This document shows, piece by piece, positions 9,758-30,052 of a DNA stretch of 34,522 bases. This DNA is from Thiohalobacter sp. (lineage in GTDB: Bacteria; Pseudomonadota; Gammaproteobacteria; DSM-19610), in NCBI GenBank assembly GCA_026984515.1, contig JALSRZ010000166.1, forward strand, positions 1 to 34,522, in the 5' to 3' direction. A program made the translations under genes and the position numbers. Positions within the stretch are counted from its first letter, which is position 1. Every line of letters begins with the position of its first letter. The notes under the pieces are model-generated. The model worked only from the letters and a program-made list of their open reading frames with translations. It was not told the DNA's origin and searched no databases.

Positions 9758-10543
9758 ATGAAACATCCTGTCAAGCTGATCACCGCCCTGCTGCTGTTAC
9801 TGGCAACGGTTGCCGGGCCTGTTGCTGCAGAAAACCTGAATGTGGTCTACAGCGGCAAATGGCCTCCCTATGCCGATGCCAGCCTGCCGCAGCAGGGTCT
9901 GGGCGTCGACCTGGTTACCACGGCCTTGCAGCGCGCCGGTTACCAGACCATTCTGCAGATCGACTCGCTGGACCGGATACTGGAAGGTGGCAAGCTCGGG
10001 GTGTACGACGTGTTTGCCACGCCCTGGTACAGCGATGAACGCAACGAGTACCTGGATTACAGCAAACCGTATCTCCAGTCCTATATCCGCTTCGTGAAGA
10101 AGAAAGGCTCCGATATCGAATTCAACAGCTTCAGCGACCTGAACGGCCTGCTGATCGGCGTGGTGCAGGACTATGCCTACGACGAGGAGTTCAACCATTC
10201 ACGCAAGCTGACCCGGATCAGCGAACGCAACCTGATCCAGAACCTGCTCAAGCTGAAGCAGGGCCGCCTCGATCTTGCCGTGGATGATGAACTGGTACTG
10301 CTGTACGAGATCAACCAGTATATGCCGAACAGCCGGAACGACTTTGTCATCCTTCCCAAGCCGCTGGCGGTACGCGGTATCCACATCGGCGTCAGCCGGG
10401 AGAACCCCCACCACGCCGCGATCGTGGCCGCCTTCGACAAGGCGATCGATGCCATGAAAAAAGACGGCAGCTACGACAAGATTCTGCAGAAACATTTCGC
10501 CTATATAAAGAAACCTGCCGGCAAACCGGCTCAGAACGAGTAA
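9758..10543 (+). CDS. Periplasmic solute-binding protein (family 3)
   Basis: 261-residue protein with a signal peptide (VKLITALLLLLATVAGPVAA, cleavage near residue 24) and an amino-acid-type type-II binding fold: VVYSGKWPPYA at the N-terminus, GLGVDLVTTALQRAGY, then FATPWYSDERNEYLDYSKPY in the place of the ligand-lobe signature, and a C-terminal lobe ending in KDGSYDKILQKHF. The GKWPPYA start and lack of nearby permease genes suggest a stand-alone sensor or scavenging protein rather than an ABC importer part; the ligand is unknown. GGAGGAAGA is directly before the ATG. Its stop overlaps the end of the convergent ExeA-like gene by 13 bases. Confidence 0.88.
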   Translation: MKHPVKLITALLLLLATVAGPVAAENLNVVYSGKWPPYADASLPQQGLGVDLVTTALQRAGYQTILQIDSLDRILEGGKLGVYDVFATPWYSDERNEYLDYSKPYLQSYIRFVKKKGSDIEFNSFSDLNGLLIGVVQDYAYDEEFNHSRKLTRISERNLIQNLLKLKQGRLDLAVDDELVLLYEINQYMPNSRNDFVILPKPLAVRGIHIGVSRENPHHAAIVAAFDKAIDAMKKDGSYDKILQKHFAYIKKPAGKPAQNE

Positions 10544-12930
10544 TCGTCGTCCGGGGTATCGCTGCCCGCAGCTGTATTGTCCGGGGTTTTGAAAATTGTC
10601 TTTAGCCAGGACATCAAGCCGTTCTTTTTCGGCTCCGGCTCCACTTTGTCGGCGGCCGGCGGTGCCGCCTCCGGTGCAGCCGCCACCACGGGTGGCGCAT
10701 CCGCCCGGGACCGCAGCGCCAGCAAACGGGTGTCGCCCGGCATGACACGAAGTCCCCGCGCTATATACCGCCTGGCCCTGGCGCGGTCCTTTTGCTGCAA
10801 CGCACGATTACCCAGCGTAATGTAGCGCTCCACGATCTGGTCGAGACCGAACAGTGCCGCGCGGTTGCCCGGCTCCAGTTCCAGCACCTGTTGATAGTAC
10901 TGGTAGGCGTTATTGTCCGCCGGGATCAGCAAGCGATAGTCACGCACGGCGCGTTGCCCCAGGGAAAGCAACTCGATGATGCGGTCTTCACGCAACCGGG
11001 GTGCGGAGCTGCGATCTTCCGGCGCTGCGGCCGGCAGGCTGACTTCGGGTTCGACTACCCGCTCCTGCGGACCCGCCGGTGTAACCGCCGCCAACACCAC
11101 GGGAGCTTCCGGTTCCGGTTCCTGCGCCGGTGCAGGCGCAGCGGTGGCGACCTCTTCTCCTACCGGTACCAGCGGATCCCCCGGCACCCGGTCTACCGGA
11201 ACCATTGCGCCCGAACCAGACTGCGACGGCTCACTTGCCGGGGATGAACGTGTATCTGCAGCCGGCGTTGCGCCGGCATCGCCGGCGATCTCCACGACTG
11301 GCTCAGAAACCGTCGGCGCCGGGGTATAGGGGATACGCGGGACCGATTCTTCGCTATGGGCATCGGGTTTATCACGCTCGACATCTTCCGCTTTTGCAAG
11401 CAGCAGCGGATCGCTACCGGGTTCAGCGGGAGAAACCGTACCCGCTTCTCCCGGATCGATCGCTACCGCTGCAACGGCCCGTTGCGCCGGCCTTTGCTGC
11501 ATGGCACTGTACTGGCCGGCCGGCTTGTCAGCAGCCGAATCCAGCAGCAGGGTCAGCACCAGGGCCGTTCCCGCCAGGGTGCCCAGCGCCAGCACCGGCC
11601 GGCCGCTCAGCAGCGGTTGCTGCGCCAGCAGGCGCTTCACTGCACCCGGGAAGTGCTGCAGCCAGTCCTTCGCCTGCTGGCAGACCGGGCCTGCAAACAG
11701 GGCGGACAGGCGCTTGCCCAGGTGATCGGCTGCGTCGACCAGGTACGATTGTGCACGCCTGTACCACGGTGAAGGAGTTGATTCCCAGGCGGGAATGCGT
11801 ACTTGCCCGGCAGGCCGACGCTGACGGGGTTGCGTGGCACCCGGTCCGGATGCTTCAGGTGGCCGGTGTTCGGGCGGCAGGTTTCCGTATTCCGCCCGCG
11901 CATCGCCCGTTCCCATGGCTTCCCTGGCCCCGCCGGCAACCGTTCTCTGCGTATATTCGACTGCGTTTGCTTCCTCGACGGCAGCTTTCGGTAATTCAGT
12001 AACCGATGCCGGTGTACGCGGTTCAGCATGCAATGCCAGGTCTGAGACAGACAGCGTGCCGTCTTCCAGACCGGCCGACACGGTATCTTCACTGCTGTCA
12101 CTGTTCAACGGGGCCAGGCGCTCTTCCTGCATGGTGCCGGCGACCTCGAGGACGTCGCGTTCACCCAGTGTGTGCTTCTTCTCCATGAAGCCATCCAGTA
12201 ACAGCCTTGTGCAGATCTTGTTGATATGCCTGGGAACACCCTGGCTGAATCGGTAAATAGCCAACAACGCCTCCCCGCTCACCGCGGGATCGCCCTGCCA
12301 GTCGGCCTTGCGCAAACGGTACTCCATGTAGTCCCGGGTATCGGTCAGGCTCAGCGGGTCGAGGTGGCAGGCGCCGATCACGCGCTGCTGGAACTGCTCC
12401 ATCGCCGGCTCGCGCATCAGGTCACGCAATCGTTCCTGACCGACCAGGAACAGCTGCAGTAGTGGACGTGAGTCCATCTGCATGTCCGCCAGCAGCCGCA
12501 GTTCCTCGAGTGCCGGGCAGGAAAGCCCCTGGGCTTCATCGATTATCAGCAGCACCCGTTTACCGGCGCCGATCTGCTCGACAAAGAAGCGCCGAAGACG
12601 CACCAGCACCGTTGCCTTGTCCAGCCCCTCCACGTCCAGGCCATAGGCGTACGCCACCACCCGCATCAGGTCGGAGGCCTCCACATTGGCCGTGGCCACG
12701 CGGGCGGCAACCACCTCTGAATGTTCCAGCTCGTTCAGGAACACCTGCGCCAGCGTGGTCTTGCCGATACCCGGCCGGCCGGTAACCATGATGAAGCCTT
12801 CGCCCAGTTTCAGCGCGTACTGGAGGTAGGCGTAGGCCTGTTCATGACCGGGGTGCCGGAAACAGAACCTGGGATCCGGCGTCAACCTGAACGGGTTGTC
12901 ACTCAGATGGTAGAAAGCTTCGAACATCAT
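10531..12930 (-). CDS. ExeA/GspA-like AAA+ ATPase with extended C-terminus
   Basis: 799 residues. Residues 1-270 are the ExeA-type ATPase: FYHLSDNPFRLTPDPRF at the start, Walker A VTGRPGIGKTTLAQ (51-59 core), Walker B LLIIDEAQ (D131, E132) and PLLQLFLVGQERL. A low-complexity Pro/Ala/Glu region follows, then a membrane helix near 445-462 (LALGTLAGTALVLTLLLD), another acidic Pro-rich linker presumably in the periplasm, and a tail with TPR-like helices (YQYYQQVLELEPGNRAALF). ExeA works with a peptidoglycan-binding partner to assemble the type II secretion secretin; MshM is a relative. The partner and secretion genes are not in this window. The start is ATG 12930: AGGGGA lies 5 bases upstream and the family's conserved N-terminus begins there; a longer reading to 13059 has no support. 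Confidence 0.85.
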   Translation of the reverse strand: MMFEAFYHLSDNPFRLTPDPRFCFRHPGHEQAYAYLQYALKLGEGFIMVTGRPGIGKTTLAQVFLNELEHSEVVAARVATANVEASDLMRVVAYAYGLDVEGLDKATVLVRLRRFFVEQIGAGKRVLLIIDEAQGLSCPALEELRLLADMQMDSRPLLQLFLVGQERLRDLMREPAMEQFQQRVIGACHLDPLSLTDTRDYMEYRLRKADWQGDPAVSGEALLAIYRFSQGVPRHINKICTRLLLDGFMEKKHTLGERDVLEVAGTMQEERLAPLNSDSSEDTVSAGLEDGTLSVSDLALHAEPRTPASVTELPKAAVEEANAVEYTQRTVAGGAREAMGTGDARAEYGNLPPEHRPPEASGPGATQPRQRRPAGQVRIPAWESTPSPWYRRAQSYLVDAADHLGKRLSALFAGPVCQQAKDWLQHFPGAVKRLLAQQPLLSGRPVLALGTLAGTALVLTLLLDSAADKPAGQYSAMQQRPAQRAVAAVAIDPGEAGTVSPAEPGSDPLLLAKAEDVERDKPDAHSEESVPRIPYTPAPTVSEPVVEIAGDAGATPAADTRSSPASEPSQSGSGAMVPVDRVPGDPLVPVGEEVATAAPAPAQEPEPEAPVVLAAVTPAGPQERVVEPEVSLPAAAPEDRSSAPRLREDRIIELLSLGQRAVRDYRLLIPADNNAYQYYQQVLELEPGNRAALFGLDQIVERYITLGNRALQQKDRARARRYIARGLRVMPGDTRLLALRSRADAPPVVAAAPEAAPPAADKVEPEPKKNGLMSWLKTIFKTPDNTAAGSDTPDDDYSF

Positions 12931-18974: not shown

Positions 18975-19193
18975 ATGAGCACAGCCGGCATACCCATGGA
19001 AATATCCATTGGCGGGATCTACTTCCCGCCGATCCTGTTTGCCATTCTGCTGGCGCTGCTGCTGGCCGGTGTCATTGCCAGACTGCTGAACCGCTTCAAC
19101 CTGACGCGTTTTATCTGGCATCCACCGCTGTTCTTTGTGGCCCTGACCGTGATCTGCACCTGGCTTGTGGATCGCTTTGTCCTTCCCGTATAA
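18975..19193 (+). CDS. DUF1656 (AaeX-like) small membrane protein
   Basis: 72 residues with two membrane helices (FPPILFAILLALLLAGVIAR and PPLFFVALTVICTWLVDRF). It matches the DUF1656 pattern: E-x-G-x-x-FPP-x-L near the start and WHPPLF before the second helix. The family always sits with HlyD and FUSC partners, as here; its role is unknown, probably as a small pump component. A second ATG at 18996 (MEISIGGIYFPP) fits family length better; neither has a clear ribosome site. The gap to the next gene is 10 bases. Confidence 0.88.
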   Translation: MSTAGIPMEISIGGIYFPPILFAILLALLLAGVIARLLNRFNLTRFIWHPPLFFVALTVICTWLVDRFVLPV

Positions 19194-19203
19194 AGGCACA
19201 TAC

Positions 19204-20085
19204 ATGAATAAAGGAAAAAGCGGGTTCATACGATATATCGTCACCCTCGGCGTAGTCATTGCCGCCGGTTTCGTGCTGGCCGGCCTGTTTCGCGATTACC
19301 TGCTCTACCCCTGGACCCGGGACGGTCACGTGCGCGCACAGATTATCAGGATTACGCCGCGGGTCGGCGGTCCTATCGTTGAGCTGCCGATTCATGACAA
19401 CCAGGCTGTAAAAAAGGGCGACCTGCTGTTCAGGATCGACCCCCGCACCTACGACCTGGCCGTCGAGCAGGCTGAAGCCAGACTCAAGCAGGCCAGGGCC
19501 ACGAAACTGGTTAAGGAAGACCGGGCCACCCGCGCAAGAACGCTGCACAGCAGGGACCGCGGGGCGATTTCCGAACAGGCCCTGGTGCGCAAGGACAATG
19601 ACCTGCTGGTTGCGGTGGCCAACGTGGACGTCGCCGAGGCCAACCTGCACGCAGCGCAACTGGACAGGGAGTTTACCGAGGTGCGGGCGCCGGTGGACGG
19701 CTACGTCACCAACCTGTTACTGCGCTATGGCAGTCAGACTGTCGCCAACCAGCCGGCACTGGCGCTGGTCGATACCGGCAGCTTCTGGGTGCACGGTTTT
19801 TTCAAGGAAACACAGATACGCAATATCCGGCGGGGTAATCGGGCCGTCATTCAGCTGATGGCCTACCCCGACACACCGCTGGATGGTGTGGTGGAAAGCA
19901 TGGGCTGGGGCATCGCCCAGCAGGACGGCGCCCCGGACGCCGACCTGCTGCCCGCCATCAACCCGAGTTTCGACTGGATCCGCCTGGCACAGCGCATCCC
20001 GGTGCGTATCCGGCTGACGCACATCCCCACCGGGGTGGAACTGCGTGCCGGCACCACGGCGTCTGTGTTCGTGATCACCGAGTAG
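19204..20085 (+). CDS. HlyD/AaeA-type membrane fusion protein
   Basis: 293 residues. One N-terminal membrane helix (YIVTLGVVIAAGFVLAGLF, about 11-29) then DGHVRAQIIRITPRVGGPIV, the typical AaeA/EmrA opening, the lipoyl half VELPIHDNQAVKKGDLLFRI, a helical hairpin, TEVRAPVDGYVTNLLLRYGS, and a beta-barrel end. It would link the FUSC permease to the outer-membrane channel. The start ATG 19204 was chosen because the helix and family start follow; an upstream ATG at 19165 overlaps the DUF1656 gene by 29 bases. The stop is 8 bases from the next gene. Confidence 0.92.
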   Translation: MNKGKSGFIRYIVTLGVVIAAGFVLAGLFRDYLLYPWTRDGHVRAQIIRITPRVGGPIVELPIHDNQAVKKGDLLFRIDPRTYDLAVEQAEARLKQARATKLVKEDRATRARTLHSRDRGAISEQALVRKDNDLLVAVANVDVAEANLHAAQLDREFTEVRAPVDGYVTNLLLRYGSQTVANQPALALVDTGSFWVHGFFKETQIRNIRRGNRAVIQLMAYPDTPLDGVVESMGWGIAQQDGAPDADLLPAINPSFDWIRLAQRIPVRIRLTHIPTGVELRAGTTASVFVITE

Positions 20086-20093
20086 GCACAGCC

Positions 20094-22289
20094 ATGTCCC
20101 GCAAGGTGCAGTCGCAGGAAGCGTTCAAGCTGGCGCTCAGCCTGACGCTGTTCTACTGGCTGGCACTCTACATGGACTGGAACCTGCCCAAGTTCGGCGC
20201 ACTCGCCATTGTCGTCACCAGCCTGTCCAGCAGCGGCGCCAGTTTCAACAAGGGTGTGATGCGGGTGGCGGGTACCGGCGCCGGGGCACTGGCCGGTTTT
20301 GTACTGCTGTCCTGGTTTGCACAGTCACCGCTCGGGATGCTGCTGGCGGTAGCGGTATACCTGCTATTCATCGCCTACTTCCTGCAGACCAGCCGCCAGG
20401 CAGATACCTGGTTCAATGCCGGTTTCCTGGCCGTGGCCGTGTGGTCGTCCAGTTACATGAAAGTAGACACTGCCTTTCACTTTGCCACTGACCGCTTCCT
20501 GGAGACCGCAGCCGGTGTGCTGCTGTTCACCCTGGTCAGCGCGCTGCTCTGGCCGCGCACCTCGCGCGGCGCGCTGCAACAGCAGGGGCAATCACTGTGG
20601 GAAGATCTGCAGAAACTGTGCGGACTGTACCGGCAGCAACTGACGGAAAGCACAGTGGATGCCCGGGCTGCCGGGCTGCGCAGCCGGCTGGCCGGGAACT
20701 ACCAGCAACTGCTGGGCACACTGGAAGCGGCCTATTACGATACCCCCGGGGTGCGGGCGCAGAAACACAACTGGGAACGGCTGTGCGTCAACCTGCGCAG
20801 GTTCAGCAACACCTGCGAGCTGTGGCGGGAAAGTATCAGCGACTGCCGCACGCTCGATCTGTATGCACTGCTGCCCGAACTCGCTTGCGCGCTCGACACG
20901 CTGCAGCGACGCCTGCAACAGGGTGGTGAACTGTGGCAACTGCTGTCATCCGCAGCCGGTGAAACGGACGCACCCGCCCCACCCCTGCCGACCGACGCGG
21001 GACTGGATATCGCCCCACAGGCCGGTGCGCAACTGGCCCACTTTGAACGCGCGGCACTGATGAACTTTATCACCCAGCTACGTATGCTCGATCACACCAG
21101 CCGCGACCTGCTGCTGACCCTGCACATGCTGGCCCGTCCCGGAAGCACGGAGCAGCGGGGGGCACAGCAGGCACTGGAAGATCCCTTCCAGCCATCCGCA
21201 TGGAACCCGGAGCGCCTGCTCAAGGCCACCTTCCCGGCACTGTGCTGGATTAGCGGCTATCTTTTCTGGATTTACGTCGAACCACCGGGTGGACCGGGCG
21301 TCCCCATGATCGCCACGGCCTTCGGTCTGATGATGCTGATGACACCGGCCAGGCTGCCGGCCCTGCTACTGGCGCTGCTGCTCAGTATGTTTATCGCAGT
21401 GGCCCCCATCTACATGTTCGTCATACCGGCGCTGGATTCCGGCTTCGGGCTGCTGGCGCTCGTTTTTATCTACTCCTTTGTGTTCGCCTGGCTGGGCGGC
21501 ATCTCACCGGTACTGAAACTGGGACCGCTGACCATGTTTGTGATGATGGTCGACATCAACAACGACCAGGTGTACTCGTTCATCCTGCTGGTCACGGCCG
21601 GTCTGGTCATGCTGCTGGGGGTCAGCATCGTGGTGGTGGTGCACCGGCTGTTGAGCCCCATGCACCCGGAAAAGATCCTGCTGCGCAATGTGCGCCGGTT
21701 TTGCAACGGCTGCGCCCGTATCGTCAGCGAATTCCAGCCCGCCTCACCGCGGCGGCGCAAGCGGCAACGCCAATTGAAAAAGCGTGTTTTCGAAAACACC
21801 ATCCTGCCGGTCGCCGCGCAACTACCGGCGCTGGAAAAGAACCTGGATTACACACAGTTCCCCGACAACGATGCAGAGAAGGTACAGGGTCTGGTAGACG
21901 GGCTGCAGTCCATACGTTACCGCCTGCAGAGCCTGGAGACCATCTACAACCGTGTAGCCGAGGAATCCCCCGACCTGCTACAGTCCCTGACGCCGGTAAA
22001 CGACCAGTGGCGGCAACGCGTACAACAGGTATTCCGAAACTGGGGACGCCTGGAAACAAGGGCTGCGCTGCCCGGGTCATGGGTCGACGCGAGCGCTTTT
22101 CCCCGACAGGTGGAACAGCACCTCGCAGCAACAGGTCCGGGGGGGACTGCCGGTACGATCGCGACACGTGACCTGCAGAATCTCTATGCCCTTGCAGGCA
22201 GCACCCGGAGCCTGCTGGATGCCATGCAGGAACTCGCTGCCAGCATGCGGCAGATCAACTGGGAGCAGTGGGCGGTGGCCCGCTTTTAA
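20094..22289 (+). CDS. FUSC/AaeB-type permease
   Basis: 731-residue inner-membrane protein of the aromatic-acid exporter (FUSC, PF04632) family. It has the usual two repeats of about six membrane helices: the first from LALSLTLFYWLALYMDWNLP to ETAAGVLLFTLVSALLWPR (about 15-150), the second from LLKATFPALCWISGYLFWIY to VTAGLVMLLGVSIVVVVHRL (about 375-520). Each is followed by a long cytoplasmic domain, the first with GEQPxxPP-like loops, the second with KKRVFENTILPVAAQLPALE. AaeB exports hydroxybenzoates and other carboxylic acids. Together with the three preceding genes it makes a complete three-membrane pump. The next gene, pta, begins 16 bases after the stop. Confidence 0.9.
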   Translation: MSRKVQSQEAFKLALSLTLFYWLALYMDWNLPKFGALAIVVTSLSSSGASFNKGVMRVAGTGAGALAGFVLLSWFAQSPLGMLLAVAVYLLFIAYFLQTSRQADTWFNAGFLAVAVWSSSYMKVDTAFHFATDRFLETAAGVLLFTLVSALLWPRTSRGALQQQGQSLWEDLQKLCGLYRQQLTESTVDARAAGLRSRLAGNYQQLLGTLEAAYYDTPGVRAQKHNWERLCVNLRRFSNTCELWRESISDCRTLDLYALLPELACALDTLQRRLQQGGELWQLLSSAAGETDAPAPPLPTDAGLDIAPQAGAQLAHFERAALMNFITQLRMLDHTSRDLLLTLHMLARPGSTEQRGAQQALEDPFQPSAWNPERLLKATFPALCWISGYLFWIYVEPPGGPGVPMIATAFGLMMLMTPARLPALLLALLLSMFIAVAPIYMFVIPALDSGFGLLALVFIYSFVFAWLGGISPVLKLGPLTMFVMMVDINNDQVYSFILLVTAGLVMLLGVSIVVVVHRLLSPMHPEKILLRNVRRFCNGCARIVSEFQPASPRRRKRQRQLKKRVFENTILPVAAQLPALEKNLDYTQFPDNDAEKVQGLVDGLQSIRYRLQSLETIYNRVAEESPDLLQSLTPVNDQWRQRVQQVFRNWGRLETRAALPGSWVDASAFPRQVEQHLAATGPGGTAGTIATRDLQNLYALAGSTRSLLDAMQELAASMRQINWEQWAVARF

Positions 22290-22305
22290 GCAACAGGGGA
22301 AACCG

Positions 22306-24402
22306 ATGCGACAGAATGTATACATCAGCGGCGCGGAACGGGGCAGCGGCAAATCCGTCATTGTACTGGCGATGATGGACTACTTTAGCGGGCACAACGG
22401 CAACGTGGGGTTTTTCAGGCCGGTCACGCGCGTGGACGCCCGGCACGACCCGCTCATTCACCTGGTCATGGAACGGTATTCCATCGACGCCCCCTGCGAA
22501 GATCTGTACGGGTGTAGCAGTGACACGGCACGCGAACTGATTGCGGCGGGCCGTTACGACGAACTGCTGAAGCGAGTGCTGGAAAAGTACCGGCGCCTGC
22601 AGGCACGCCATGACCGGGTACTCTGTGCAGGCACGGACTATTCCGGAGGCTACGCTGCCCTGGAGTTTGATTTCAACGCGGACGTGGCCAATAACCTGGG
22701 CTGTTCCATCCTGCCCGTGGTACGCGGCAGCGGGCGCAGCGTCGCCGGGATACGGGATGCCACCGGCGGCTTCCTGCAGTCCCTGCGCGAGCGGCACTGT
22801 GACATCCTGGCGACCGTCATCAACCGGGTAGCCCACTCGCAGGTCGGGGAACTGCGGGCCGGCTTCGCGCAAGGGGCTGCAAACCATCCTGCCGTGTACC
22901 TGGTGCCAGAAGAGCCGGCACTGTCCAGGCCCACGGTCGGCGACATTGCGCACAGTCTCGACGCACGTGTACTCCAGGGTGACACGGACACGCTGAACCG
23001 GGAAATCACCCAATACACAGTAGCCGCCATGCAGGTACCGGATTTTCTCGATCACCTCGTGGAAGGCAGCCTGGTGATCACACCCGGTGACCGTGCCGAC
23101 ATCATCCTTGCCTGCCTCATGTCCTACCCTTCCAGTGCCTGCCCGCAGATCGCCGGCCTGCTGCTGAGCGGCGGGCTGGACCCTGCGCCCCAGCTGCAGA
23201 AACTGCTCGACGGACTGGACAAGCCGCCTTTCGCCGTGCTGGGTACGGGTGGCGATACCTTCACCACCGCCATGCAGGTAAACCAGGTCAGGAGCGTGCT
23301 GACGCCGGATAACGAACACCGGCTTGCCACGGCACTGGGCCTGGTGGAAGCCAGTGTACCCTTGCCGGCGCTGGCAAAATCGCTGGCCGGTGAGCGCGGC
23401 AAGCGCGTGACACCACTCATGTTCGAGTACGAACTGGTCCAGCGTGCCCGTACCGACCTTCAGCACATTGTACTGCCCGAAGGCGGCGAGGAGCGCATCC
23501 TGCGCGCGGCTGAGCTGCTCAGCTTGCGCAGCGTGGCAAAACTGACCCTGCTGGGAGAACGCGACACGATACAGCAGAAAATCCAGGCGCTGGGCCTGCG
23601 CCTGGAGAGCGTCGAAGTCGTCGACCCCCGGCAGTCGTCCCTGCGCAAACAGTACGCCGATACCTACTACGAACTGCGTCGTCACAAGGGCATATCGCAC
23701 GACATGGCCTATGACAGCATGGCCGATGTCAGTTATTTCGGCACCATGATGGTCCATCACGGACAGGCGGACGGCATGGTGTCGGGCGCGGTACACACCA
23801 CGCAGCACACCATCCGCCCGGCTTTTGAAATCATCAAAACCCGGCCCGGCACCGCCATCGTCTCCAGTGTGTTTTTCATGTGCCTGGAAGACCGTGTGCT
23901 GGTCTACGGCGACTGCGCGGTCAACCCGGACCCGGACGCACAGCAACTGGCGGATATCGCACTCAGCTCGGCCGACACGGCGCGCCTGTTTGGCGTCGAG
24001 CCGCGCATCGCCATGCTGTCCTACTCCACCGGCGCATCCGGCAAGGGCAGCGCCGTCGACAAGGTGCGCGAAGCGACGCAACTCGCCAGGGAACTGCGCA
24101 GCGACCTGATGATCGAAGGGCCGATCCAGTATGATGCAGCCATCGATGCCGGCGTCGCCAGGACCAAACTGCCCGACAGCCAGGTGGCCGGCAGCGCGAC
24201 CGTGTTTATATTCCCCGACCTCAACACCGGCAACAATACCTACAAGGCCGTGCAGCGCTCGGCCGGTGCGGCGGCTATCGGGCCGGTTCTGCAGGGCCTG
24301 AACAAGCCGGTGAATGACCTGAGCCGCGGCTGTACGGTCACCGATATCGTCAACACCGTGGCCATTACCGCCGTGCAGGCACAAACCGGCAACGCATCAT
24401 GA
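22306..24402 (+). CDS. pta: Phosphate acetyltransferase (long form)
   Basis: 698 residues. Catalyses acetyl-CoA + phosphate <-> acetyl phosphate + CoA. Three parts: an N-terminal BioD-like P-loop domain (NVYISGAERGSGKSVIVLAM, about 4-23), a DRTGG domain (about 210-320), and the catalytic PTA_PTB domain from about residue 375 (LPEGGEERILRAAELLSLRS; TMMVHHGQADGMVSGAVHTT; YSTGASGKGSAVDKVREATQ; IEGPIQYDAAIDAGVARTKL; FPDLNTGNNTYKAVQRSAGA). The long form is the E. coli type. Start ATG 22306 has AGGGGAAA before it and starts the conserved N-terminus; a frame open back to 22168 overlaps the FUSC gene. The end overlaps ackA by 4 bases (ATGA). Confidence 0.96.
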   Translation: MRQNVYISGAERGSGKSVIVLAMMDYFSGHNGNVGFFRPVTRVDARHDPLIHLVMERYSIDAPCEDLYGCSSDTARELIAAGRYDELLKRVLEKYRRLQARHDRVLCAGTDYSGGYAALEFDFNADVANNLGCSILPVVRGSGRSVAGIRDATGGFLQSLRERHCDILATVINRVAHSQVGELRAGFAQGAANHPAVYLVPEEPALSRPTVGDIAHSLDARVLQGDTDTLNREITQYTVAAMQVPDFLDHLVEGSLVITPGDRADIILACLMSYPSSACPQIAGLLLSGGLDPAPQLQKLLDGLDKPPFAVLGTGGDTFTTAMQVNQVRSVLTPDNEHRLATALGLVEASVPLPALAKSLAGERGKRVTPLMFEYELVQRARTDLQHIVLPEGGEERILRAAELLSLRSVAKLTLLGERDTIQQKIQALGLRLESVEVVDPRQSSLRKQYADTYYELRRHKGISHDMAYDSMADVSYFGTMMVHHGQADGMVSGAVHTTQHTIRPAFEIIKTRPGTAIVSSVFFMCLEDRVLVYGDCAVNPDPDAQQLADIALSSADTARLFGVEPRIAMLSYSTGASGKGSAVDKVREATQLARELRSDLMIEGPIQYDAAIDAGVARTKLPDSQVAGSATVFIFPDLNTGNNTYKAVQRSAGAAAIGPVLQGLNKPVNDLSRGCTVTDIVNTVAITAVQAQTGNAS

Positions 24403-25604
24403 CCAGGATACTGGTAATCAACTCGGGCAGCTCTTCCATCAAGTACCAGCTTTTCGATATGGATGCAGGGCAGGTGCTCGCCTCCGGTGCCGTCGAGCGT
24501 ATCGGTGAAGCGGAAAGCCTGCTCCGGCACCGGTCCCACGGTGGCGACAATACCGGCGAGCGCTGCCACAATCACCACATTGCCGATCACCGGGAAGGTC
24601 TGGCGCAGATCGGCGCCCTGCTGCGCGAATCCGGTACGCTCACCGAACTGTCACAGCTTGCGGCCATCGGGCACCGGGTGGTGCACGGTGGTGAACATTT
24701 CCGCGAGCCCGTACTGATCGATGCGAGCGTTGTCGAGCGGATTCAGGACATGATCCCGCTGGCGCCGCTGCATAACCCGGCCAACCTCATGGGGATCGAA
24801 GTCGCCCTGCAGCAGGCGCCGGAAACACCACAGGTCGCAGTATTCGACACCGCCTTCCACCAGTCCATCCCGGAACCCGCCTGGCGCTACGCCCTGCCCG
24901 ACCGCCTGTACCGCGAACAGCGGGTGCGTCGTTATGGTTTCCACGGCACCTCGCATGCCTACGTGGCCAGGCAGGCCGCTGCCATGCTGGGCAAGCCCCA
25001 CGAGTCGACACGGCTCATCACCCTGCACCTGGGCAATGGTGCCAGCGCAGCGGCCATCGCCGGGGGAAACAGCATCGATACCTCCATGGGCATGACACCG
25101 CTCGAGGGCCTGATCATGGGAACCCGCTGTGGCGACATAGACCCGGCCATCCCCTTCTACCTGTCCCGTGCCACCGGCATGGATTACCCTGAAATCGAGT
25201 CCCTCCTCAACCGCGACAGCGGTCTCAGGGGCATCTGCGGAGCCAACGACATGCGCGAGATACACCGCCTCGCCGACGCGGGGGACTCACAGGCACAGCT
25301 CGCACTGGATATGTATTGCTACCGTATAAAAAAGTATATCGGCGCCTATTATGCCGCACTGGGCTCGCTGGATGCCGTGGTGTTTACCGGAGGCATCGGC
25401 GAAAACGACGCCCGGGTGCGTGCGCAATGCTGTGCCGGAATGGAAGCACTGGGCATCGAACCCGATGCCGGGAAAAATACCGCCGGCAACGGTGCTTTCA
25501 GCATGCACAGCAGCCGTTCGCAGGTCAGCCTGCTGGTAATCCCGACCAATGAAGAACTCGAGATCGCTCGCCAGACCATGCACTGCATCCGGCACAGCGG
25601 GTGA
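24399..25604 (+). CDS. ackA: Acetate kinase
   Basis: 401 residues, standard length. Makes ATP and acetate from acetyl phosphate and ADP (reversible). All motifs seen: ILVINSGSSSIKYQLFD at the N-terminus, GHRVVHGGEHF, PLAPLHNPANLMGIEVA, VFDTAFHQSIPE, RRYGFHGTSHAYV, ITLHLGNGASAAAI, MGMTPLEGLIMGTRCGDIDP and VVFTGGIGENDARVR. It overlaps pta by 4 bases, so the two are translated together, and is followed after 4 bases by the unrecognised gene. It would drain acetyl phosphate made by Pta or by the phosphoketolase coded in the opposite direction. Confidence 0.97.
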   Translation: MTRILVINSGSSSIKYQLFDMDAGQVLASGAVERIGEAESLLRHRSHGGDNTGERCHNHHIADHREGLAQIGALLRESGTLTELSQLAAIGHRVVHGGEHFREPVLIDASVVERIQDMIPLAPLHNPANLMGIEVALQQAPETPQVAVFDTAFHQSIPEPAWRYALPDRLYREQRVRRYGFHGTSHAYVARQAAAMLGKPHESTRLITLHLGNGASAAAIAGGNSIDTSMGMTPLEGLIMGTRCGDIDPAIPFYLSRATGMDYPEIESLLNRDSGLRGICGANDMREIHRLADAGDSQAQLALDMYCYRIKKYIGAYYAALGSLDAVVFTGGIGENDARVRAQCCAGMEALGIEPDAGKNTAGNGAFSMHSSRSQVSLLVIPTNEELEIARQTMHCIRHSG

Positions 25605-25608
25605 GTTC

Positions 25609-26610
25609 ATGGGCCTGCTGCAGGAATGGCTGTCCAGCCTCGAAAAAAAACGCCGGCAGCTCAGGCTCGACAGGGCGGCCGCGCGCGCCAGGGAACGCAG
25701 GCTTCACGATGCCATCGAGCACGTGGTCGATGAAATCAATCCCGGACTCCGCGCGTTGGGCAGCTACCGGAAAAAACTGCGGCCCTGTGTCGAGCACACC
25801 CTGGACTACTGCGCCAGCCTGGTAAGCGACCTGCCGATCAGTGTTGAAGTCAGCAGCAGGAACTGGGGACGGGAACCCGCGGTCAAGGCATTCTTTTCCA
25901 CGGCCAGTGAAGTGCAACAGGTCTTCAGCCGGAGCCGGGAAATACGCGACTTCTTTGACCACCACCTGGAGGCCGAATACTGCCACGCGCTGTTGAGCAT
26001 GGAACGCAGGGAACGCACCACGCTGGGCATGGAAATGCACGGGGACATGATCAGGCGGGACGTGCGCCAGACCACGGTGAGCTTTACCGATCACCGCGTG
26101 CTCACCCCCTCTGCAGACGAACAGGAACTGAAAGAGAAACTGCGAAAACGTGCGTTTGAAAGCCTGGTCGCTTACACGCTGGAAAGAATCAGCGAGCTGG
26201 TTGCCGCGCGCCATCTGGCGGAAGAACAACGGCAACTGCTGAACATGCGCCGCAAGATCGATCGACTGAAAGGCAACAGTTTCGAACCACTGCTACGCAC
26301 CACGGAGAGCACAGAAGAACAGGCGCCCGGGCCGGTCCTGTATGCACAGCAAAGGGCCGCCCTCAGCACCCTGAACGACTATATCGACCGCATCGCCGAC
26401 GTTCTGTGCCGGCCGGAAGACTGGCTGCGGGTATACCGCGTGCCCCTGCACCTGGACAAAATGAATATCAAACTGGACGCCGCCTCCGATACGGAAGGCT
26501 ATACCCTGCAGCTGACCGAAGCGACCCTCGGCGAACAGCTGAAACGCACCCTGTTTATCGCCCGCTTCCCGCGCGACGAACTGCTGCCTGAACAGGACTT
26601 CCTGGCATAA
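25609..26610 (+). CDS. Unrecognised charged protein, last gene of the pta-ackA unit
   Basis: 333 residues. I do not recognise a family. It has no signal peptide or membrane helix. Residues 1-45 are highly basic and helical (LSSLEKKRRQLRLDRAAARA), suggesting a coiled coil. Residues about 60-150 are mixed, with FFDHHLEAEYCHALLSMERR; 150-215 hold RRDVRQTTVSFTDHRVLTPS; 180-240 is another strongly helical charged stretch ending RQLLNMRRKIDRLKG; the C-terminal third has WLRVYRVPLHLDKMNIKLDA and ends EATLGEQLKRTLFIARF. The gene begins 4 bases after ackA, so it is almost surely co-expressed with pta and ackA. An earlier ATG at 25549 lies inside ackA; the 25609 start is the better fit to gene spacing. 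Confidence 0.85.
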   Translation: MGLLQEWLSSLEKKRRQLRLDRAAARARERRLHDAIEHVVDEINPGLRALGSYRKKLRPCVEHTLDYCASLVSDLPISVEVSSRNWGREPAVKAFFSTASEVQQVFSRSREIRDFFDHHLEAEYCHALLSMERRERTTLGMEMHGDMIRRDVRQTTVSFTDHRVLTPSADEQELKEKLRKRAFESLVAYTLERISELVAARHLAEEQRQLLNMRRKIDRLKGNSFEPLLRTTESTEEQAPGPVLYAQQRAALSTLNDYIDRIADVLCRPEDWLRVYRVPLHLDKMNIKLDAASDTEGYTLQLTEATLGEQLKRTLFIARFPRDELLPEQDFLA

Positions 26611-26675
26611 CAAACCTCCGCCAGGCTACTACTCACCGGCGGGCAGCGTATGCAGACCGGCGGTTCCCGGTCAAC

Positions 26676-26702
26676 CCGTCATTCCGGCATACGGGATGAC
26701 GG
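26676..26702. terminator. Palindrome between convergent genes (possible bidirectional terminator)
   Basis: CCGTCATTCCG (26676-26686), loop GCATA (26687-26691), CGGGATGACGG (26692-26702): an 11-base stem with one T-G wobble. It lies between the stop of the unrecognised gene (26610) and that of the phosphoketolase gene (26722). It has no T-run, so the terminator reading depends on position; the sequence is also a copy of the CGTCATTCCGG palindrome found at 33797-33906. Confidence 0.5.
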
Positions 26703-26721
26703 TAAATGAATCAGGGCTTCC

Positions 26722-29115
26722 TCAATAGGGCCATCTCCAGTCCCGCGCCTCGGGCTGGTCGACACCGTACTCGTGCGCGTAGTTGCGGCACTCGATCTGC
26801 ATGTCGCGCAGGCGTTCCTTGATATGAGCGCCGGCCACCTGCAGGCGCGGCACGCGGTCGATGACATCGATCGCCAGGCTGAAACGGTCGATCTGGTTCT
26901 CGATGGCCAGTTCCAGCGGCGTATTGATACTGCCCTTTTCCTTGTAACCACGCACGTGCAGGTGCTTCTGGTTGGTGCGACGGTAGGCCAGGCGGTGGAT
27001 CAGCCAGGGATAGCCGTGAAAGTTGAAAATGATCGGCCGGTCGCGGGTAAACAGGCTGTCGAAGTCACGATCCGACAAACCGTGCGGGTGCTCGTCCGCC
27101 GACTGCATGCGGAACAGGTCGACTACATTGATGAAACGAATCTTCAGATCATCGAAGTGCTCGCGCAGCAGTGCAGTCGCCGCCAGTGCTTCCTGGGTGG
27201 GAATGTCACCGCAACCCGCCATCACCACGTCCGGTTCGCAACCCTGGTCATTACTGGCCCACTCCCAGATACCGATACCCTTGGTGCAGTGCTTGATGGC
27301 CGCATCCATATCCAGGTATTGCAGGTGCATCTGCTTGTCTGCAACGATGACATTGATGTCATCGCGGCTGCGCAGGCAATGGTCGGCTACCGACAGCAAG
27401 GTATTGACATCCGGCGGCAGGTAGATGCGCGTTACTTGCGGGTTTTTATTGACTACCACGTCGAGGAAGCCGGGGTCCTGGTGAGTAAAACCGTTGTGGT
27501 CCTGGCGCCAGACCGTGGAGGTAATCAACAGGTTCAGGGAAGAGACCGGCGCCCGCCAGGGAATCTCCTCGCAGATGGCCAGCCACTTGGCGTGCTGGTT
27601 GTACATGGAGTCGATGACGTGCACAAAGGCTTCATAAGTGGCAAAGAAACCGTGCCGCCCGCTCAGCAGGTAACCTTCCAGCCAGCCTTCCAGGGTGTGT
27701 TCGGACAGCATCTCCAGCACCCGGCCGTCGGGTGACAGCTCGCCTCCATCCTCGTCTTCCGGCAAGTATTCGGCCAGCCACAGTTTTTTACTCACCTCGT
27801 AGATGGCCTGCAGCTTGTTGGAGGTATTCTCGTCCGGCCCGAAGACACGGAAGTTATCCATGTTCCTGCGCATGATGTCGCGCAGGAACTCCCCCAGTGG
27901 CGGTGTGTTGGCGATTTCCTGCCGGGCCGGTTCCGGCACCTCCACCGCGTAGTCGCGAAAGTCCGGCATGCGCAACGCCTTGCGCAGCAGGCCGCCATTG
28001 GCGTGTGGGTTGGCGCTCATGCGCCGCTCGCCGACCGGCGCCATGGCGCGCAGTTCCGGGAGTAGTTTGCCGGATTCGTCGAACAGTTCCTCCGGGCGGT
28101 AACTCTTCAGCCAGTCTTCCAGCATCTGCAGGTGCTGCGGGTTATCGCGTATGCCCGACAGGGGCACCTGGTGCGCGCGCCAGAAGCCTTCCACCCGCTT
28201 GCCGTCGACTTGCTTCGGTCCGGTCCAGCCCTTGGGCGTGCGCAGCACGATCATCGGCCAGTGCGCACGCGTCGCCCGGCCGCTTTCCCGTGCCTGACCC
28301 TGAATAGCACGAATCTCCGCCAGGCACCGGTCCATGGTGGCCGCCATACGCTGGTGCAGGACCTGGGGATCATCACCTTCCACGAAGCAGGGCTTCCATC
28401 CATACCCCTGTAACAGGGATTCCAGCTCCCCGTGCGGGATGCGTGACAGGATGGTAGGGTTGTTGATCTTGTACCCGTTGAGATGCAGGATCGGCAGCAC
28501 CGCGCCGTCGCGGATCGGGTTGAGAAACTTGTTCGAATGCCAGGAGGTCGCCAGCGGGCCGGTTTCCGCCTCACCATCCCCCACCGCAACGGCCACCAGC
28601 AGGTCGGGGTTGTCGAATGCAGCACCAAAGGCGTGCGATATACTGTAACCGAGTTCCCCGCCCTCGTGGATCGAGCCGGGCGTTTCCGGGGTACAGTGGC
28701 TGCCTATGCCGCCGGGGAAGGAAAACTGTTTGAAGAAATGGTGCATACCGTCCACATCTTCGCTCTTGTCCGGGTAAATCTCTGAATAGGTCCCCTCCAG
28801 GTACACCGGCGCCAGCACCCCGGGTGCTCCGTGACCAGGTCCGGCCAGGAAGATGGCATTCAGGTCCTCCTTGACAATCAGGCGGTTCAGGTGGGTATAC
28901 ATAAAGGCGAGACCCGGGCTCGCACCCCAGTGACCCAGCAAACGGCGCTTGATGTGTTCAATCTGCAGCGGCTCCCTGAGCAACGGGTTTTCCTGCAGGT
29001 AGATCATGCCCGCCGCGAGGTAGTTGCAGGCACGCCAGTAGGCATCGATTCTGGCAAGCACTTCGGGCGACAAGGGGTTATCGATGGTTTCCATTTCGGA
29101 CGCGGTTACAGACAT
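26722..29115 (-). CDS. xfp: Xylulose-5-phosphate/fructose-6-phosphate phosphoketolase
   Basis: 797 residues, usual length. TPP-dependent enzyme that splits xylulose 5-phosphate or fructose 6-phosphate with phosphate into acetyl phosphate plus glyceraldehyde 3-phosphate or erythrose 4-phosphate. Seen: [82 protein letters not shown] site [14 protein letters not shown] (179-192), [33 protein letters not shown], and the C-terminal [17 protein letters not shown]. Start ATG 29115 has AAGGAG 9 bases upstream; a longer reading to 29163 lacks support. It converges with the pump-pta-ackA unit and supplies that unit's substrate, acetyl phosphate. Confidence 0.96.
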
Positions 29116-29305: not shown

Positions 29306-30052
29306 TCAGTAGATCCTTTTTTCCTTCTCGGTCACCAGCGGCCGTCCGCGCAGCAGCCTTCTGCCCCGCTTCAGCAGCTGCTTGCGCGGGTTCACGTCCT
29401 GGAACACGACCAGGAAGGCCTTGCGGAACGCGCCCTCGGCACACTGGATCTCGCGCACGCCGTGCCAGGAGTTGCCCTTGCGGCCGAAGATCAGGCTGTG
29501 GTTGTCCATGGTCTCCGCACTGATTTCCTCATCGAAATCCTCGAACGCCGGGCTGGAATCCGTCCTGAAACGGCCGTGGTCATCCAGAATCAGGGTCTGA
29601 CCGCCCCAGGCCGGGTCCCAGTCCTGCTCTGAATTCATGTAAAAGATATGCGACCCGAGCTTGCCGCGGGAATCACAGTGCGGTGATACCGTGCAACCGT
29701 TCGGCGTGTAATGCCAGTGGAAACGGAAACGAACGTGCCGGTATCCGAGCAGATCCTTTATAAATGCCCGGTACAGGTCACTGCGCAATTCGTCGACAAA
29801 GGCCTGCCAGGGGGCCGGCAGCGCCAGCCCGTCCTCGTACTCCAGCACGTAGCGGTTGTGACTTTGCTGTCCGTACTTGCGTTGCTTGCCGAAAAAGGTA
29901 GTAAACAGGGAGATATCCGGCATATTCGCCAGCAATTCCTCAAACCCCGTTGCCGTCAGCATACCCTGCGGATTGATCCAGGGATAAGGCTTCCGGTTAC
30001 GGAATACCTGCGTGTTAATGGAGCGGATCATTTCCTCGTTCAGATAGCGCAT
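29306..30052 (-). CDS. 2-oxoglutarate/Fe(II) dioxygenase-like protein
   Basis: 248 residues with the double-stranded beta-helix oxygenase pattern: SPHCDSRGKLGSHIFYMN gives HxD (H125, D127), NSWHGVREI gives the distal His (H197), and R210 (FRKAFLVVF) would hold 2-oxoglutarate. W149-GGQTLILDD matches the WGG-L region typical of prolyl-hydroxylase-like members. The substrate is unknown; related proteins act on peptidyl residues, on sugars or on secondary metabolites. The start ATG 30052 has GAGG 10 bases upstream. The tail (about 222-248) is basic: RKQLLKRGRRLLRGRP. It is upstream of and in the same direction as the phosphoketolase gene (190-base spacer), so the link may be only partial. Confidence 0.82.
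   Translation of the reverse strand: MRYLNEEMIRSINTQVFRNRKPYPWINPQGMLTATGFEELLANMPDISLFTTFFGKQRKYGQQSHNRYVLEYEDGLALPAPWQAFVDELRSDLYRAFIKDLLGYRHVRFRFHWHYTPNGCTVSPHCDSRGKLGSHIFYMNSEQDWDPAWGGQTLILDDHGRFRTDSSPAFEDFDEEISAETMDNHSLIFGRKGNSWHGVREIQCAEGAFRKAFLVVFQDVNPRKQLLKRGRRLLRGRPLVTEKEKRIY

Follow-up and report, generated by a model that had tools for sequence, protein, structure and literature searches.

An uncharacterized 333-aa protein encoded at 25609..26610 (+ strand) of the window, by which we mean the whole 34,522-nt stretch of DNA that we analyzed, belongs to a bacterial protein family that we call FAM. The family is real and uncharacterized, and the copies of Pfam and NCBIfam that we searched do not cover it. 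FAM is recurrently encoded beside makers and users of acetyl phosphate (Pta, AckA, and sometimes Xfp) and beside PPK2, the polyphosphate kinase 2 that uses polyphosphate. On the strength of this genome context, we tentatively favor a reading in which FAM serves energy-reserve modules for starvation or low oxygen (acetyl phosphate, polyphosphate, and glycogen or PHA) as a non-catalytic accessory or adaptor. The tie to energy-reserve genes is statistically supported and lineage-dependent; FAM is a new family of an ordinary kind, probably accessory proteins. Little is understood of how bacteria, in starvation or anoxia, change over between oxidative ATP supply and the reserve phosphates acetyl phosphate and polyphosphate, and a probably non-catalytic protein that unrelated lineages encode next to both AckA and PPK2 is a concrete, testable candidate for that control. 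Members exist in culturable Cupriavidus and other Burkholderiales.

The FAM gene runs on the + strand from an ATG at 25609 to a TAA at 26610 (333 codons). As the original prediction stated, it starts 4 bases after ackA and converges with the phosphoketolase gene. Directly 5' lies ackA (acetate kinase, 24399..25604, + strand; PF00871, Acetate_kinase, E 1.7e-146), whose stop codon ends at 25604, leaving the 4-nt gap. ackA in turn overlaps by 4 nt with pta (22306..24402, + strand), which encodes a phosphate acetyltransferase of the AAA_26-DRTGG-PTA_PTB type (PF01515, E 2.7e-131; PF07085; PF13500); we picked the pta start at 22306 by eye inside the ORF 22168-24402. On the other side, xfp (phosphoketolase, 26722..29115, - strand; PF09364, XFP_N, E 1.7e-176; PF03894; PF09363) ends at 26722, 111 nt from the end of the FAM gene. 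A start at another in-frame ATG, position 25549 within ackA, would yield 353 aa. We preferred 25609 because the homologue in the nearest relative, a Gammaproteobacteria MAG (L001, 78% identity), also has its ATG 4 nt after its ackA; gene order and convergent xfp are shared with the window as well. Between these two loci, the Nei-Gojobori dN/dS ratio was 0.28 for FAM and 0.16 for ackA. The FAM protein is thus under purifying selection, and this ratio, together with intact homologues of similar length in many genomes, rules out a chance ORF. We found no sigma-70-like promoters in 22000-26800, a search that was uninformative. By eye, HlyD-like and FUSC-type (aromatic acid exporter-like) proteins are encoded directly 5' of pta (19165-22289), and a 248-aa protein resembling 2OG-Fe(II) oxygenases is encoded 5' of xfp, on the same strand as xfp (29306-30052). 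Both are kept in L001, the latter at 10126-10872.

We found no known family for the protein, as the original prediction had also held. The window protein had nothing above 13.5 bits in Pfam, no match in NCBIfam, and no meaningful match among PDB sequences. The few matches of the family to Pfam, NCBIfam, PHROGs, and PADLOC were weak, scattered, and largely of coiled-coil type, and did not identify it. PDB sequence matches of the FAM profile, likewise set aside, were to coiled coils, the arms of seryl-tRNA synthetases, and a short segment of a cysteine desulfurase. A PHA phasin identity was also rejected, with no phasin family among the Pfam and NCBIfam matches listed for FAM.

AlphaFold2 models of the window protein and of the homologue at locus L054 were confident (mean pLDDT 89.3 and 94.0, respectively) and agreed on the order of elements: a helical N-terminal part, a two-strand hairpin (approximately 20 residues each), a long helical arm, and three further strands. 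The long charged helical segments described earlier correspond to helices 2-43 and 171-222 of the window model, but that description missed a five-stranded beta part made of residues 124-168 and 273-321. The long beta hairpin (codons 124-168, 25978..26112, + strand) holds the most conserved residues (G140, D151, V152, Q154, F159, and H162), and the long helix (codons 171-222, 26119..26274, + strand) forms the coiled-coil arm in the model and draws the generic coiled-coil matches. Foldseek searches of the models against PDB and BFVD returned nothing below E 0.08; the best PDB values for the two models, used as whole-model queries, were 0.30 and 0.094. VIA-align reached best Z scores of 4.8 and 7.3, almost wholly in the coiled-coil arm. 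We do not claim a new fold, because the searches used whole models and not the beta part alone.

The first 17 codons (MGLLQEWLSSLEKKRRQ; 25609..25659, + strand) encode an amphipathic stretch within helix 2-43, with 11-mer hydrophobic moments of 0.64-0.72, and several homologues also have an amphipathic N-terminus. We infer from it a candidate membrane or surface contact. The protein had been described as lacking a membrane part. Indeed, no hydrophobic membrane segment is evident by eye, but the amphipathic N-terminus would allow peripheral membrane contact. The net charge is approximately zero, which leaves the idea of a strongly basic polyphosphate binder unsupported.

FAM is patchily distributed. 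We searched 369 genomes from the class (GTDB Gammaproteobacteria, Burkholderiales included) and obtained matches in 21, approximately 5% of those sampled; in one of them (G034), the match is a short broken stretch. In a phylum-wide sample, convincing matches were confined to the class; we discarded weak extra matches, which mostly cover only a seryl-tRNA-synthetase-like coiled-coil stretch. Ten of 20 genomes in the window's order carry FAM, as do 14/23 in the order of genome G360 and 35/40 in the order of genome G068, where two to four copies per genome are usual. Elsewhere it is rare (1/197 genomes in the order of G685). Some members sit on megaplasmids, in Cupriavidus, Paraburkholderia, Caballeronia, and Eleftheria, and phage records gave no match. 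Since many FAM-bearing genomes have two to four copies, single copies may differ in role.

We compared the surroundings of 49 FAM loci (the discovery set, from which the window itself was excluded) with 40 arbitrarily placed 20-kb regions from FAM-bearing genomes, a comparison in which loci from related genera count as only partly independent. Within approximately 10 kb, AckA was present at 8/49 loci versus 0/40 controls, PPK2 at 8/49 versus 1/40, Xfp at 3/49 versus 0/40, and any of the three at 13/49 versus 1/40 (one-sided Fisher p 0.0015). Unbiased clustering of all neighbor proteins in this set placed PPK2 first (six genera) and SulP second (five), with pta in three genera. The same scan of a new set of 40 further FAM loci from two orders (those of G068 and G360), with controls drawn from other genomes than the new set, found Pta near 7/40 loci versus 0/40 controls, AckA near 4/40, and PPK2 near 4/40 versus 1/40, the PPK2 difference alone not being significant; Pta, AckA, or PPK2 was near 10/40 versus 1/40 (p 0.0035). 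At one further locus (L184), a PTA_PTB protein detected by Pfam only, and additional to the 7/40, is encoded 44 nt upstream of FAM. Pooled, 23/89 loci have pta, ackA, xfp, or PPK2 within approximately 10 kb, versus 1/40 controls (p 0.0007), and 66/89 have none of these markers. The association is lineage-dependent, because all ten positive loci of the new set come from the G068 order (10/21). At the 19 loci from the G360 order, none of them positive, Lon-Usp, CYTH, or CNNM-like neighbors take the place of the markers.

The original prediction had proposed a tie to the acetyl-phosphate genes, with a survey to ask whether ackA or xfp lies nearby more often than by chance and homologues lying mostly elsewhere counting against it. 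Enrichment was found in a subset of loci, and most copies do lie away from pta, ackA, and xfp. With PPK2 as the neighbor found in more genera than any other in the unbiased clustering, the theme extends beyond acetyl phosphate to reserves of high-energy phosphate and carbon.

Among the key ARRANGEMENTS, type (i), pta-ackA-FAM, is that of the window's subfamily: the window, L001/L102, L103, where it converges with glgP-xfp, and L104, where a contig end leaves the ackA side only. A member of a different subfamily lies 3' of ackA at L106 (G761), across a gap of 235 nt. Type (ii), pta-ackA-fabI-FAM, usually with DUF3141 and sometimes with SulP or PPK2, is found at L063 (Caballeronia), L172, and L191, the full order at L063 being PPK2-SulP-DUF3141-pta-ackA-fabI-FAM. 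Loci L169 and L178 are also of this type, with less certain gene borders, and Cupriavidus oxalaticus (L059) has the same gene set in a different order. Taken broadly, the island pta-ackA-(fabI)-FAM, often with DUF3141, SulP, or PPK2, occurs in Burkholderiales and in unrelated orders. In type (iii), PPK2 lies immediately 5' of FAM on the same strand, at distances of approximately 25 nt (L049 and L117), 37 nt (L109), 9 nt (L084), and 53 nt (L168); L049/L117 (G342/G763) are distant members counted as ackA-linked as well as PPK2-adjacent. Type (iv) is SixA-CHAD-Ppx-8 nt-FAM (L054), and type (v) is FAM-xfp-glgP-glgX (L051).

A 50-row maximum-likelihood tree places the ackA-linked members on four branches apart from one another: the window's subfamily, L106, G342/G763, and Burkholderiales. 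The FAM-ackA association has either arisen repeatedly or is old and often lost; either history favors function over accident. The PPK2-linked L109 and L049/L117 group together in a single clade, so their linkage may have arisen only once, and the position of L084, a long branch, is uncertain. At the genome level, PPK2 was present in 19/20 FAM-bearing genomes versus 192/349 others (55%; p 1.6e-4), a comparison that leaves genome size and phylogeny uncontrolled and is weakened because PPK2 is common and FAM-bearing genomes are possibly just larger. XFP_N was present in 9/20 versus 79/349 (p 0.027, rising to 0.053 when the window's genome is left out; same uncontrolled comparison). We dropped the idea of a dedicated phosphoketolase partner, because 11/20 FAM-bearing genomes have no xfp and the co-occurrence is weak.

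Several known systems invite comparison. Relative to the proteins of the Pta-AckA pathway, FAM is encoded immediately after pta-ackA in the window, but it matches neither family and is missing from some pta-ackA clusters. CHAD domains bind polyphosphate (PMC6537752). CHAD proteins (PF05235) are encoded near polyphosphate enzymes, and the FAM member at L054 lies directly 3' of a CHAD-Ppx pair. However, FAM is not a CHAD protein: PF05235 gave no match to the window protein at E up to 10 and was absent among the 25 commonest Pfam families listed for 26 FAM members at E up to 0.1; the FAM model is mixed alpha/beta with five strands, whereas CHAD is an all-helical domain with conserved histidines. 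The sole well-conserved histidine of FAM is H162 (81%). The low-oxygen-activated (lxa) locus of Burkholderia cenocepacia is reported to comprise 50 genes, including pta, phbB, usp, and phosphofructokinase, to combine a phosphate acetyl/butyryl transferase, a PHB reductase, universal stress proteins, and uncharacterized proteins, and to be needed for anoxic persistence (PMC6127331). By gene content as described there, it resembles the pta-ackA-fabI-DUF3141 islands that hold some Burkholderiales FAM members, and the window's cluster contains pta and ackA but differs from lxa in having phosphoketolase.

This resemblance to lxa (PMC6127331) also speaks for a different explanation that we regard as possible, if rather doubtful: FAM could be a general stress-island protein, carried along in anoxia or starvation islands (Usp, Lon, DUF3141, SulP, fabI, and pta-ackA) while working on another target (the envelope, proteostasis, or nucleic acid, for example), so that shared regulation alone would link it to acetyl phosphate. 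LonB-Usp neighbors at three g267 loci and at L034, and OmpA, redoxin, and further neighbors at other loci, are in keeping with this. In several unrelated lineages, however, FAM directly adjoins ackA, fabI, pta, or PPK2 on the same strand and across a short gap, an arrangement tighter than loose island membership needs. It is improbable that FAM came to lie 3' of ackA by accident, as a mobile or duplicated accessory gene amid neighbors of no functional meaning. Its patchy spread, its paralogues, and its many contexts would suit such a history, but the enrichment recurs in the discovery set and in a separate sample, and the slot 3' of ackA is filled by two different subfamilies in one genus.

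The conserved residues bear on whether FAM could catalyze a step of acetyl-phosphate or polyphosphate metabolism at an active site not yet described, which we consider very unlikely. Polar positions with conservation do cluster in the beta hairpin (E135, D146, D151, Q154, and H162), joined by R48, K56, and K175, but all vary to some degree, unlike a catalytic site, and enough to make a classical active site unlikely; only F96, G140, and V152 are invariant in alignment A1, and only the F96 column in the 47-row set. Highly improbable, in our judgment, is a DNA- or RNA-associated regulator of the adjoining genes. The basic stretches of the coiled-coil arm and weak generic matches to SMC/Rad50 and seryl-tRNA synthetase arms point that way, but those matches are limited to the coiled coil, and we found no convincing match to a known nucleic-acid-binding domain.

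We return to the accessory or adaptor reading. The original prediction offered a regulator, scaffold, or acceptor of the pathway as possible roles; a scaffold or regulator fits better than an enzyme because there is no conserved set of catalytic-type residues. The adaptor reading is further favored by the pta-ackA-FAM position, the distant islands, the enrichment in both samples, PPK2 adjacency and co-occurrence, the SixA-CHAD-Ppx-FAM locus, the four ackA-linked branches, and the confident models. It is weakened by the 66/89 loci without markers, including all 19 in the order of G360, by a net charge unexpected for a polyphosphate binder, and by the window's own genus, where half of the ackA clusters examined are without FAM (for example, xfp-ackA or glgX-pta-ackA), so the FAM protein is optional. 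As a mechanism, the helical arm and beta domain could dock a phosphotransfer enzyme (Pta, AckA, Xfp, or PPK2) or a phosphate polymer, the amphipathic N-terminus perhaps holding FAM at a membrane or granule surface, and such docking would localize or tune ATP regeneration. In the window, AckA or Pta, presumably translated from the transcript that also carries FAM, would be the partner. A bolder version, that in many Gammaproteobacteria (Burkholderiales among them) FAM is an undescribed adaptor family coupling polyphosphate- and acetyl-phosphate-driven ATP regeneration to a membrane or granule surface, seems unlikely to us.

Other genes also recur beside FAM. A small protein of approximately 93-97 aa (MPHSSDHDPGLIQVLVERLNTQRLPCALDLKKKVDGG...), with no Pfam match, adjoins it in several genera, mostly convergent on the opposite strand (L033:10430-10720, L038:10611-10901, L111:752-1033, L195:8934-9212, L201:4446-4724, and L204:2171-2455). 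In the order of G068, members of one subfamily regularly have an HNH endonuclease gene (approximately 200 codons) as a partner, often a few nt upstream (L036, L037, L174, L176, L180, L182, L183, L190, and L193). A conserved protein of approximately 150 aa (MSxKTKxxTDLAAxIKSLKGYLLEKGHRxERGPxYEGQ...) is encoded 3' of FAM at L048, L169, L172, L184, and L191, the L172 copy having no Pfam match. Finally, four loci of one genus (L034, L194, L205, and L206) share a stable neighborhood of a LonB-type protease, a universal stress protein, FAM, and a cytochrome b561-like cluster, the cytochrome being assigned by eye.
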